From Candidatus Planktophila sp. (GTDB lineage: Bacteria > Actinomycetota > Actinomycetes > Nanopelagicales > Nanopelagicaceae): a DNA stretch of 40,310 bases. The position numbers and the translations under genes are program-made. The notes beneath the pieces were generated by a model. The model did not search any database. It was not told where the DNA came from and saw nothing but the letters and a program-made list of their open reading frames with translations. Numbering within the stretch: position 1 is the first letter of the stretch; each line of letters starts with the position of its first letter. Positions 8,642 through 13,632 of the stretch are shown one piece after another. The stretch covers positions 1 to 40,310 of the forward strand of contig SHVG01000005.1 in assembly GCA_009691145.1 (NCBI GenBank). Reading direction: 5' to 3'.

Positions 8642-8693
8642 ATTTCCCCCATAATTTCTAGTACCACCTAACGTGAAGATAAGGAGAAGCCAC

Positions 8694-9776
8694 ATGAGTA
8701 ACGATCGCTTTGCATCAGCCCATGAGATGGTTCGCGAATACGCCGAGCTTGAAGCACAGATGGCCGATCCGACTATTCACGATGATCAAAACAATGCCCG
8801 CAAACTTGGCCGTCGTTATGCCCAACTTGGTCCAGTTGTTGCAGGATTTAAAGCCTGGAAATCAGCTGAAGATGATTTGCTTGCCGCTAAAGAGTTAGCG
8901 CTAGTTGATGCCGATTTTGCATCTGAGATCCCAGCGCTCGAGACAGCTGCAGTTGCCGCCGCAGAGAAGTTAGAAGAGTTATTGCTGCCACGTGACCCTA
9001 ACGATGATCGCGATGTAATTTTGGAGGTTAAAGCTGGCGCTGGCGGAGATGAGTCTGCAATCTTTGCCGGAGATTTACTGCGCATGTATATGCGATATGC
9101 CGAGCGCCATAATTGGAAAGTTGAAATTATCAATGCCACCGAAAGTGAAATGGGTGGCTACAAAGATATTTCAGTGGGAGTTAAATCAAAGGGGGTTCCT
9201 GCCCCAGGTGAGTCTCCGTATGCGCGTCTTAAATTCGAAGGTGGAGTACACCGAGTACAGCGCGTGCCAGAGACTGAGAGTCAAGGCCGTATCCATACAT
9301 CGGCAGCTGGTGTTTTAATCTTGCCAGAGGCTGAAGAGATCGATGTTGAGTTAAATATGAATGATGTACGCGTTGATGTTTTTCGCTCATCGGGCCCTGG
9401 CGGACAGTCGGTTAATACAACCGACTCTGCAGTGCGTTTAACCCACCTACCAACGGGCATTGTTGTCTCTTGTCAGAACGAGAAGAGCCAGCTGCAAAAT
9501 AAAGAGTCGGCACTTCGTATTCTGCGTGCACGCCTGCTGGCTGCAGCCCAAGAGGCGCAGGAAGCAGCGGCATCGGCCGAGCGCAAAAGCCAGGTACGCA
9601 CGGTCGATAGATCAGAGCGAATCCGAACATATAACTATCCTGAAAACCGTATTAGTGATCACCGAGTCAATTACAAGTCAAATAATTTAGATGCAGTATT
9701 AAATGGCGATCTCGATGACATGATCCAAACTCTAATCGATGCCGACAAAGCCGCACGTTTAGCTCATACGAAGTAA
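8694..9776 (+). CDS. prfA: peptide chain release factor 1
   Basis: GGQ motif in [38 protein letters not shown] region. ATG 8694 has an AAGGAG RBS. Confidence 0.97.
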
Positions 9777-9782
9777 AGCTTC

Positions 9783-10631
9783 ATGGATATCAAGGCCTTA
9801 CTTCGTAATGCAAAATCACAGTTGGCCGAATCGCAGATATCGCAGGTCGATGCCGAGCATTTATTAGCCCATGTATTAGGTATCTCCCGGATGGATCTGC
9901 ACAACCCAGTTCTCATTGAAACGACTCTCGCAGCAGTCAGTGATAGCGATGTTATCGAGGAGCAGTTCCTTACTGTGTTGGACCGACGCATCAATCACGA
10001 GCCACTGCAATATCTCACTGGTATTGCACCCTTTAGATATTTAGAGATTGAAGTTGGCCCAGGTGTTTTAGTTCCACGCCCAGAGTCAGAGTTGTTAGTT
10101 GATGCTGTGTTAACGCATATTAAGAATCTGCCAGCTCCAGTGAGCGTAATTGATTTAGGTGCAGGGTCAGGGGCTTTGGCGCTAGCGATTGCAACTGAGG
10201 CACCAGATACTCGCGTGATTGCAGTTGAAAAATCTCCCGAGGCGATTTACTGGCTCAAGAAAAACGTTTCGGTTATTGCCGAGAACGTGCGCGTAGTCGA
10301 AGGTGATGTCGCCGATGCCTTGCCCGGAATTAAATGCGATGTTGTCATCGCTAATCCTCCATACACTCCAGATGCTCAGGCCTTGCCGCGCGATGTCGCC
10401 GGCTTTGAGCCTCATGCCGCCCTCTTTGGTGGACCAACCGGGATGGAACTGCCAAAGATTTTTATTATTGCAGCGGCTCGACTACTAAAGTCTGCGGGGG
10501 TATTGGTTATCGAACATACCGAAGAGCAGGGGGCAGATATAGCTGCTGAATTAACGCTAGATTTTGCGAGTATTACACTCCATGATGATCTGGTTGGTCG
10601 TCCACGATGGACTAGTGCGGTGAGGAGGTAA
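9783..10631 (+). CDS. prmC: release factor glutamine methyltransferase
   Basis: SAM-MTase with VIDLGAGSGALALAIA and VVIANPPYTPD; located directly after prfA. Confidence 0.94.
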   Translation: MDIKALLRNAKSQLAESQISQVDAEHLLAHVLGISRMDLHNPVLIETTLAAVSDSDVIEEQFLTVLDRRINHEPLQYLTGIAPFRYLEIEVGPGVLVPRPESELLVDAVLTHIKNLPAPVSVIDLGAGSGALALAIATEAPDTRVIAVEKSPEAIYWLKKNVSVIAENVRVVEGDVADALPGIKCDVVIANPPYTPDAQALPRDVAGFEPHAALFGGPTGMELPKIFIIAAARLLKSAGVLVIEHTEEQGADIAAELTLDFASITLHDDLVGRPRWTSAVRR

Positions 10632-10633
10632 TC

Positions 10634-11278
10634 ATGGGCAAAGAGATTGATTTGAAAAAAGGCGAGATCAGTCGTCACATCAATAAAGCGTTGAAAGCGA
10701 TATCTGATGGATACGTCATCGTGATTCCTCTTGAGCACAGTTATGCATTTGCCTGCGATGCCTTTAAACACGATGCCGTGCGTGCGATGCACGTCTTACG
10801 TGGAGATCCATTGTTTACTGCAGCTCAAGTCTTAGTCGGCAGTACAAAGACGGCCCATGGTGTGGTGCGTGAAATTACTCCAGAGATCAGCGCATTAATG
10901 AAAAAGTTTTGGCCAGGAATGTTATCGATGAACCTTCGTCCACAAACGGGATTGAGTTGGGATTTGGGCGATGCTAATCAGTTAGATCGAGTGAGCATTC
11001 GTGTTCCTAAGAGTAAGTTTGCTAAAGCTCTAGTGGCCGAAAGTGGACCATTGGCCGTTGCAAGTGGAGTGCGTGTTGGCCGTCCTGCACCAAAGGCTTT
11101 GAGCGATATCTTTGTTTTGGACTCAGATTTAGCGATGCAGTTTAATAATGGCAATCTGCGAAAGGGCCCAACAACAACGGTAGTAGAAGCCGATGAGACC
11201 GGTGTGCGCGTGCTGCGAATTGGGGCAATCTCATTGGAAGAGATTCAAGGTATCGTTCCTGGTGCCACTGCCCTATAA
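10634..11278 (+). CDS. Sua5/YciO/YrdC-family protein (divergent; L-threonylcarbamoyladenylate synthase-like)
   Basis: Collinear with actinobacterial Sua5/YrdC (GYVIVIPLEHSYAFACDAF ... FWPGMLSMNLRP...LSWDLGD ... GPLAVASGVRVGRPAP) and in the usual prmC-sua5 position, but the active-site motifs are altered (see findings). Confidence 0.8.
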   Translation: MGKEIDLKKGEISRHINKALKAISDGYVIVIPLEHSYAFACDAFKHDAVRAMHVLRGDPLFTAAQVLVGSTKTAHGVVREITPEISALMKKFWPGMLSMNLRPQTGLSWDLGDANQLDRVSIRVPKSKFAKALVAESGPLAVASGVRVGRPAPKALSDIFVLDSDLAMQFNNGNLRKGPTTTVVEADETGVRVLRIGAISLEEIQGIVPGATAL

Positions 11279-11287
11279 GATTGGGCC

Positions 11288-12547
11288 ATGTCCACTTTCT
11301 ATGGCCCCGATTTTCAAGCCTTAACCAAGCAAGATCCAGAGATCGCCGCGGTTTTATTATCTGAACTCAAGCGTCAACAGACCAACTTGCAGTTAATCGC
11401 ATCGGAGAACTTCACATCGCGCGCAGTCTTGGCGGCGATGGGATCATCGCTATCTAATAAATATGCCGAGGGCTATCCAGGCAAGCGCTACTACGGCGGA
11501 TGCGAAGAGGTAGACAAGGCTGAGTTCCTTGCAATTGAGCGCGCGAAGAGTTTATTTGGGGCAGAGCATGCAAATGTTCAACCGCACTCAGGTGGTAGCG
11601 CCAACGTCGCCGTCTATCAAGCCTTTACTAAGCCCGGAGATACTGTGCTTGCAATGTCACTGCCACATGGTGGCCACTTAACACATGGCTCGCCAGTTAA
11701 CTTTTCAGGTAAGTGGTTTAACGTAGAGTCATACGGTGTGCGGGCCGATAACGAACTCATTGATTATGACGAGCTTCGCGATAAAGCCATCGCAGTTAAG
11801 CCAAAGATGATCTGCTCGGGTGCAACTGCATACCCCTCACTTATTGATTTTGAAAAGATTCGTACGATTTGTGATGAAGTCGGCGCAATTATGTGGGTAG
11901 ATGCTGCGCACTTCATCGGTTTGGTGGCCGGCAAAGCGATTCCATCTCCAGTTCCTTATGCCGATGTGGTTTCATTTACGACACACAAAGTTTTGCGAGG
12001 ACCTCGCGGTGGCATGATTCTGGCTAAGGCCGAACACGCCGCCGCCATCGATAAGGCGGTTTTCCCTGGGATGCAGGGCGGGCCAATAATGTCGGCCATT
12101 GCAGGAAAGGCCGTTGCCCTAGCTGAATGTGCAACACCTGGCTACCAAAAGTATGCAAAGGATGTGATCGTTAACGCCAAAGCCTTAGCTGCAGCTCTAG
12201 AGTCTGAAGGTATGCGCGCAGTATCTGGCGGCACACAAACTCACCTCGCGTTGATGGATATTCGCAGCACTGGCGTTACTGGAAAGGTCGCCGATGAGCG
12301 TTGTGGCGCAGCAGGAATCGTCATGAATAAGAACTCCATTCCTTATGATCCAGAAAAGCCAGCTGTGACAAGCGGTGTGCGCGTTGGAACGCCTGCCACC
12401 ACTACCCAGGGCATGGGGCCGGCCGAGATGAAGCAGATCGCATCGTTGATTGCGCGCGCAATTGCAACCGATGATGGCGCAACCCATGCTTTGATTAAAA
12501 CCGAAGTCCACGCTCTTACTGCGCGTTTTCCCATCTATCAGGCGTAA
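11288..12547 (+). CDS. glyA: serine hydroxymethyltransferase
   Basis: 419 aa; LIASENFTS, TTHKVLRGPRGGMIL PLP-lysine motif. Confidence 0.97.
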   Translation: MSTFYGPDFQALTKQDPEIAAVLLSELKRQQTNLQLIASENFTSRAVLAAMGSSLSNKYAEGYPGKRYYGGCEEVDKAEFLAIERAKSLFGAEHANVQPHSGGSANVAVYQAFTKPGDTVLAMSLPHGGHLTHGSPVNFSGKWFNVESYGVRADNELIDYDELRDKAIAVKPKMICSGATAYPSLIDFEKIRTICDEVGAIMWVDAAHFIGLVAGKAIPSPVPYADVVSFTTHKVLRGPRGGMILAKAEHAAAIDKAVFPGMQGGPIMSAIAGKAVALAECATPGYQKYAKDVIVNAKALAAALESEGMRAVSGGTQTHLALMDIRSTGVTGKVADERCGAAGIVMNKNSIPYDPEKPAVTSGVRVGTPATTTQGMGPAEMKQIASLIARAIATDDGATHALIKTEVHALTARFPIYQA

Positions 12548-12555
12548 CTAATTTC

Positions 12556-13632
12556 ATGCGCGAATATTTAGTCACTCTACTTATCTCTGCGGCGCTGTGT
12601 TATCTGGTTACTCCATTTGTGCGCACGCAGGCGATTCGCTTCGGTGCAGTAGCCCAGATCCGTGGCCGCGATATTCACACGACACCAACTGCTCGCTGGG
12701 GTGGGGTAGCGATGTGGATAGCGATGTCGGTGACTTTTATGATCGTCAATCACCTTCCACTCGTTGGTAAATCATTTGGCCACGAATCACAGGGTATTTT
12801 CTTAGCGGCAACTGTCATTGTCTTACTTGGTATGGCCGATGATCGTTTTCAATTAGATGCCCTTACAAAACTTGCCGGTCAAGTCTTCGTTGCAAGTATT
12901 TTATTGTTATATGGAATCCAGATTTTATGGCTACCCATTAACGGGGTTGTTACGCTGCCACCAAGCATTGGTCAGTTAGTTACAGTATTAATCGTTGTTG
13001 TGATAATTAACGCCGTGAACTTTATCGATGGTATGGATGGCTTAGCCGCTGGAATCGTGGCTATTGCCGGCATAGCTTTTTTCGCCTTTGCCTATCTATT
13101 AGCCGTTGATTTCGGCTTCAGCCGTGCCGGTGCACCATCTTTAATTACCGCGGTTTTAGTTGGAATCTGTATTGGTTTCTTGCCGCATAACGCACACCCG
13201 GCGCGGATTTTTATGGGGGATAGTGGATCGATGTTGCTAGGGCTTCTATTAGCTGCTGCTGCAATCACATTAACTGGGCAAGTAGATCCCAATGCAATCT
13301 CGGCTGAATCTGCCGGTCCAACACTCTTACCGCTGCTCTTACCCTTTGCCGTTCTTGCGATTCCATTAGCTGATTTATTACTCGCCGTTGGCCGCAGAGT
13401 ACAAGCTGGTAAATCCCCCTTCGCACCTGATAATGAGCATTTGCATCACCGTCTATTAAGTGCCGGGAACTCCCAGTTAAAAACCGCCTTCATTCTTTAT
13501 CTATGGACGGCGACGATAGCTTTTCCAGTCACTGTTTTAGCCTTTGCGCCGTGGTGGGTGGCCCTCTTAACAGCACTGACTTTAATCACGATTACATCAT
13601 TGATTAGCCGAAAGAGTAAGGTGAGCAAATGA
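12556..13632 (+). CDS. undecaprenyl-phosphate N-acetylglucosaminyl 1-phosphate transferase (MraY/WecA family)
   Basis: Multi-TM; NFIDGMDGLAAG, ARIFMGDSGSMLLG, DNEHLHHRLL motifs; upstream of the atp operon as in many actinobacteria. Confidence 0.92.
   Translation: MREYLVTLLISAALCYLVTPFVRTQAIRFGAVAQIRGRDIHTTPTARWGGVAMWIAMSVTFMIVNHLPLVGKSFGHESQGIFLAATVIVLLGMADDRFQLDALTKLAGQVFVASILLLYGIQILWLPINGVVTLPPSIGQLVTVLIVVVIINAVNFIDGMDGLAAGIVAIAGIAFFAFAYLLAVDFGFSRAGAPSLITAVLVGICIGFLPHNAHPARIFMGDSGSMLLGLLLAAAAITLTGQVDPNAISAESAGPTLLPLLLPFAVLAIPLADLLLAVGRRVQAGKSPFAPDNEHLHHRLLSAGNSQLKTAFILYLWTATIAFPVTVLAFAPWWVALLTALTLITITSLISRKSKVSK

Follow-up and report, generated by a model that had tools for sequence, protein, structure and literature searches.

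A TsaC-fold protein lacking the KxR/SxN tetrad is conserved at the prmC-glyA locus of Nanopelagicales

Functional YrdC proteins are marked by a KxR/SxN signature, and YciO, which is without this signature, fails to complement (PMC3223725). In vitro, the TC-AMP synthase activity of E. coli YciO is very weak (PMC12506659); the protein does not replace YrdC and is suspected of a role in rRNA metabolism (PMC3223725, PMC12506659). A related fold is found in the YrdC domains of HypF and TobZ; these act as carbamoyl-adenylate synthases, are joined to Kae1-like domains and retain KxR/SxN (PMC9654439). A survey of the family kept KxR/SxN sequences only and judged the co-occurrence of TsaC and Sua5 to be rare and unstable (PMC10321239). 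When we searched the literature for acI or Nanopelagicales together with Sua5 or t6A, no papers were found.

The window analyzed here, a stretch of 40,310 nucleotides, comes from a MAG of 1.08 Mb and 79% completeness. We take this genome to fall within the Nanopelagicales, presumably the acI lineage of freshwater actinobacteria. On the + strand, which carries all features given below, positions 10634..11278 hold an open reading frame with an ATG start for a 214-residue protein, which with its orthologues we call the short copy. It follows prmC (9783..10631) directly with a gap of 2 bp and precedes glyA (11288..12547) with a gap of 9 bp; prfA (8673..9776) upstream and a wecA-like glycosyl phosphotransferase gene (12556..13632) downstream are its further conserved neighbors. 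Our synteny comparison showed that the order rho-rpmE-prfA-prmC-short copy-glyA-wecA is kept throughout Nanopelagicales, and that an intact TsaC occupies the same prmC-glyA position in other families of the class. A Pfam profile search returned a match to PF01300 (Sua5_yciO_yrdC) of 80.9 bits against a cut-off of 25.1. Coordinates, profile match and synteny thus agree with the preliminary description, which had placed a Sua5/YrdC homologue here. With the NCBIfam TC-AMP synthase equivalog model TIGR00057, the protein scored 104 bits, under the cut-off of 123.2; a weak CNF1 profile match lay below that model's cut-off and was disregarded. An AlphaFold (AF2) model built from 54 orthologues reached a mean pLDDT of 95.2 and a pTM of 0.91, and its best match in the PDB was P. 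abyssi Sua5 (6f89; TM 0.90, rmsd 2.1), followed by YciO and YrdC. Since the predicted Sua5 fold is intact, the gene is not broken.

To locate the active-site residues we used S. tokodaii (St) Sua5 numbering, with correspondences taken from our own alignment, in which the window protein shows zero gaps across both key motifs relative to S. tokodaii and P. abyssi Sua5. The first motif (residues 32-43, 10727..10762) reads PLEHSYAFACDA in place of PTDTVYGLGADA, with E34, Y37, D42 and A43 retained, and the PTDT motif, PTET in the aligned Sua5, is PLEH. At the KxR half of the tetrad stands R56-G57-D58 (10799..10807), so that Lys57 is replaced by R56 and Arg59 by D58; at the SxN half stands S144-G145-V146 (11063..11071), where Ser144 is retained and Asn146 has become V146. 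We also noted Q65 (10826..10828), which is conserved in a clade-specific manner and is Pro in canonical actinomycete TsaC. Also retained are WPG (residues 93-95, 10910..10918), R123 (11000..11002) and R195 (11216..11218), all three invariant, together with the actinomycete-TsaC motif WDLGD (residues 109-113, 10958..10972) and T182. It had been proposed that the hallmark catalytic motifs are lost here while WPG and WDLGD remain, and that reading proved right wherever we checked it: the first motif, KxR and the Asn of SxN are all replaced. The ligand positions had been set beforehand as the test of the loss; in the gapless alignment Lys, Arg and Asn are gone from them, and the reading stands. 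Because the protein was tested for both the tetrad and TIGR00057, and has RxD/SxV and a score under the cut-off, the name TC-AMP synthase is not warranted for it; most likely it has lost the ability to make TC-AMP. Annotation by similarity would nevertheless give it that label, probably wrongly, in an abundant freshwater lineage.

Set against the known systems, the window protein shares with TsaC (YrdC, YwlC; L-threonylcarbamoyladenylate synthase type 1) the fold, the single domain, its descent, the prmC-glyA or prmC-wecA locus and the residues WPG, WDLGD, R123, S144 and R195. It differs from TsaC in RxD/SxV for KxR/SxN, in PLEH for PTDT, in its TIGR00057 score and in that complete relatives carry another protein of the family whose motifs are intact. 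Sua5 (TsaC2) has a catalytic domain of the same fold and, in the P. abyssi protein, provides the top structural match; however, the window protein stops after the YrdC domain, lacking both the C-terminal SUA5 domain (PF03481) and the tetrad, and in its complete relatives a canonical Sua5 is encoded by a gene of its own. Unlike the YrdC domains of HypF and TobZ, it stands alone and is without KxR/SxN.

The loss is shared by the whole order. KxR/SxN was present in 0/85 distinct short-copy orthologous domain sequences of Nanopelagicales and in 38/38 long Sua5 copies retrieved from this order and its class, a pattern that neither chance nor sequencing error can explain. Among the 85, the commonest forms were RxD/SxA (31), RxD/SxS (15) and RxD/SxV (10), the first two making up a new consensus to which most copies conform. 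Seven sites show one conserved state in the short copies and another in canonical TsaC, and four of these (L55, R56, D58 and Q65) lie in cavity loop 55-66 (P = 0.0003 for enrichment in the loop, which was picked after the data were seen). In genus g55 the short copy (L143:1746-2405, G223:C103) is highly divergent, reads PFLHTH and RxV/NxN, and lies away from prmC-glyA.

One earlier suggestion was that t6A synthesis depends on another copy. In 17/17 single-contig Nanopelagicales genomes we found the short copy plus one further PF01300 gene, a long Sua5 that includes the SUA5 domain; those long copies whose sequences we read carry PTETVYGLGADA (GADP in one), KGRP and SAN. A canonical second copy thus exists in these relatives; in what is assembled of the window's own MAG, at 79% completeness, neither Sua5 nor a PF03481 match was found. 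The close relatives G042, G057 and G024, whose short copies are 88-89% identical, carry Sua5, and we take its absence from the window's MAG to be an assembly gap, a cause by contig breaks being borne out in part. A search for TsaB, TsaD and TsaE had also been advised, and all three are present in this MAG, TsaE, TsaB, RimI and TsaD look-alike genes being grouped on contig C56. Its tsaD is divided between two contig ends (L202:1-912 on C56 and L203:4783-5292 on C39), and tsaE, tsaB and the rimI-like gene adjoin the part on C56.

The most useful part of our analysis goes beyond the original finding and concerns the class-wide association of Sua5 with altered TsaC. Across 64 Actinomycetes genomes in which the copy is linked to prmC or prfA, the tetrad was intact in 42 and altered in 1 without Sua5, and intact in 5 and altered in 16 with Sua5 (P = 6e-10). 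From this count we omitted G424, since its genus mates have Sua5 and its copy is partial. Counted per family (all intact versus any altered), the numbers were 29/1 without and 2/8 with Sua5, the families not being fully independent of one another. The lone altered copy without Sua5 belongs to G481, a congener of the Sua5-bearing G445 with a nearly identical altered motif. Some of the genomes had been chosen for low profile scores; the subset drawn by kinship alone led to the same outcome at a weaker P, with intact and altered copies numbering 32/0 without Sua5 and 4/4 with it (P = 0.0008). Counting the PT[DE]T motif as well, the numbers became 32/0 and 2/6 (P = 7e-6). Mapped on the TsaC tree, alteration requires five changes, at least four of them forced by well-supported branches. 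In other Sua5-bearing families the prmC-linked TsaC takes the forms KxQ/GxN, KxL/AxN, KxY/TxN, RxG/AxN (for example L301 of G307, f37) and QxR/AxS (L304 of G445, f38). L293 (G100, f29) reads RxR/SxN, and its first motif is changed as well. No TsaC copy was found in the fragmented, Sua5-bearing genomes G487 and G492, so outright loss may occur too. In the sampled Actinomycetes, TsaC and Sua5 commonly occur together if copies without the tetrad are included. The tie between Sua5 gain and TsaC alteration offers a natural experiment that separates TC-AMP synthesis from other roles of TsaC, and it makes the question of YciO-like proteins testable.

Our trees place the short copies in a single clade (100/96) beside family f5 and actinomycete TsaC and remote from the long Sua5. 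Together with the TsaC-type synteny, this placement identifies the gene as a vertical TsaC orthologue. In f5, which is closest to the short clade, Sua5 is present, PTDT is lost, and KxR and SxN are retained; this suggests that PTDT was lost first and the tetrad later.

Taken together, we infer that Sua5 probably took over t6A synthesis and that the old TsaC was retained for another role, independent of the tetrad, as in YciO. An actinomycete TsaC would have been inherited vertically in the prmC-glyA operon until the lineage acquired a two-domain Sua5, which would then take on the making of TC-AMP for t6A. The older TsaC may have shed PTDT and later KxR/SxN, yet without deletion of the gene, and the Nanopelagicales copy would have fixed a new cavity-loop signature, L-R-x-D with Q65, under strong purifying selection. 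By analogy with YciO, the remodeled cavity might still bind a nucleotide-, phosphate- or RNA-like ligand in a translation-linked role. YciO has a conserved positively charged surface patch, and for the short copies we compared net charge. A charge shift was considered as evidence of RNA binding but not used: the net charge of the 85 copies was about 0 against -8 for Sua5, but -4.1 after thinning, when the shift vanished. A broader version is more speculative, and we put it forward as somewhat less than an even bet: TsaC itself may hold a second, tetrad-independent function, such that each gain of Sua5 frees the active site to erode while the gene is kept, several times independently and furthest advanced in Nanopelagicales, and YciO may share this origin.

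The short copy could instead be a pseudoenzyme partner of Sua5, TsaD-TsaB-TsaE or tRNA that regulates t6A synthesis without catalysis, which we regard as unlikely but worth some weight. Alteration with retention does accompany Sua5 in several lineages, and in G223 the divergent short copy and the canonical Sua5 gene are convergent, some 0.6 kb apart. Elsewhere, however, we saw no linkage to Sua5 or tsaBDE, the gene remaining with prmC and glyA, and a protein acting purely as a scaffold would have no need of a particular fixed cavity-loop signature.

We consider it improbable that the protein remains a TC-AMP synthase whose active site has been rearranged, either redundant with Sua5 or sufficient alone where none was found. 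The fold persists along with the ligand-side residues S144, R123, R195 and E34; the change of Lys to Arg is conservative, so that with Ser144 and both conserved Arg in place a weak activity is conceivable, and the window's own genome has TsaB, TsaD and TsaE. Against this, K and R of KxR and N of SxN are all lost; KxR/SxN is kept in 42/43 genomes elsewhere in the class that depend on TsaC alone; and the same RxD/SxV occurs in G072, where no Sua5 was found, and in G042, where Sua5 is present. Several fragmented genomes of high completeness do show the short copy alone: no Sua5 was found in 11/35 non-single-contig genomes of at least 97% completeness. This absence tracks fragmentation, as Sua5 was found in 17/17 single-contig genomes versus 24/35 of these others (P = 0.01). 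The Sua5 genes of G042 and G057 sit roughly 1 kb from where a contig ends, and in G047, G144, G143 and G138 (98-99% complete, Sua5 not found) the purM contig ends within a few kb. In G053 we found no Sua5 in the roughly 15 kb read beyond purM on the same contig, so there the gene must be elsewhere or missing. The Sua5 genes of Nanopelagicales often lie near genes of glycosyltransferase or surface-polysaccharide type (L116, L117, L118, L174), in neighborhoods that vary between genomes; with such variation, MAGs may often miss Sua5.

That the gene is a decaying TsaC relic, retained by chance or for operon spacing, is very improbable, even though the ancestral catalytic residues are gone and the branches are longer than those of intact TsaC. 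For sequence pairs with dS of 0.1-1.2, the median dN/dS of the short copy was 0.061, close to that of prmC (0.047), with glyA at 0.036; on these values we rejected decay. The long Sua5 gave medians of 0.077 for the catalytic domain and 0.124 for the whole protein, from just 10-11 qualifying pairs, and comparison with the former indicates that the short copy is about as constrained as the canonical enzyme. Its reading frame is open in every single-contig genome of the order, and 16 columns are invariant, in addition to the new clade-specific conservation. A gene so stable, conserved and selected in Nanopelagicales probably serves a function independent of the tetrad. The preliminary description had raised a repurposed YrdC fold as one explanation, and purifying selection with retention throughout the order supports a kept, changed function.

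Membership in the known YciO family is the least likely reading and scarcely credible. YciO likewise has Arg at the Lys position and no Asn, but the tree that includes YciO rules out orthology by grouping the short copies with prmC-linked TsaC at 96/100 and seven actinomycete YciO-like proteins in a separate clade on a long branch (100/100), the synteny is of TsaC type, at prmC-glyA and not rnm, and in place of the Arg the window protein has Asp whereas YciO has Leu. Given this separate clade, the shared change of Lys to Arg and loss of Asn are convergent. The TsaC-derived protein probably resembles YciO, a tetrad-less TsaC paralogue beside a functional TC-AMP synthase, as a kept and repurposed YrdC fold.

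Lastly, in one Planktophila subclade (L060-L066 and L070-L072) we observed that RxD is replaced pairwise by HxS or HxA. As R56 and D58 are altered together, the two positions appear to be coupled.
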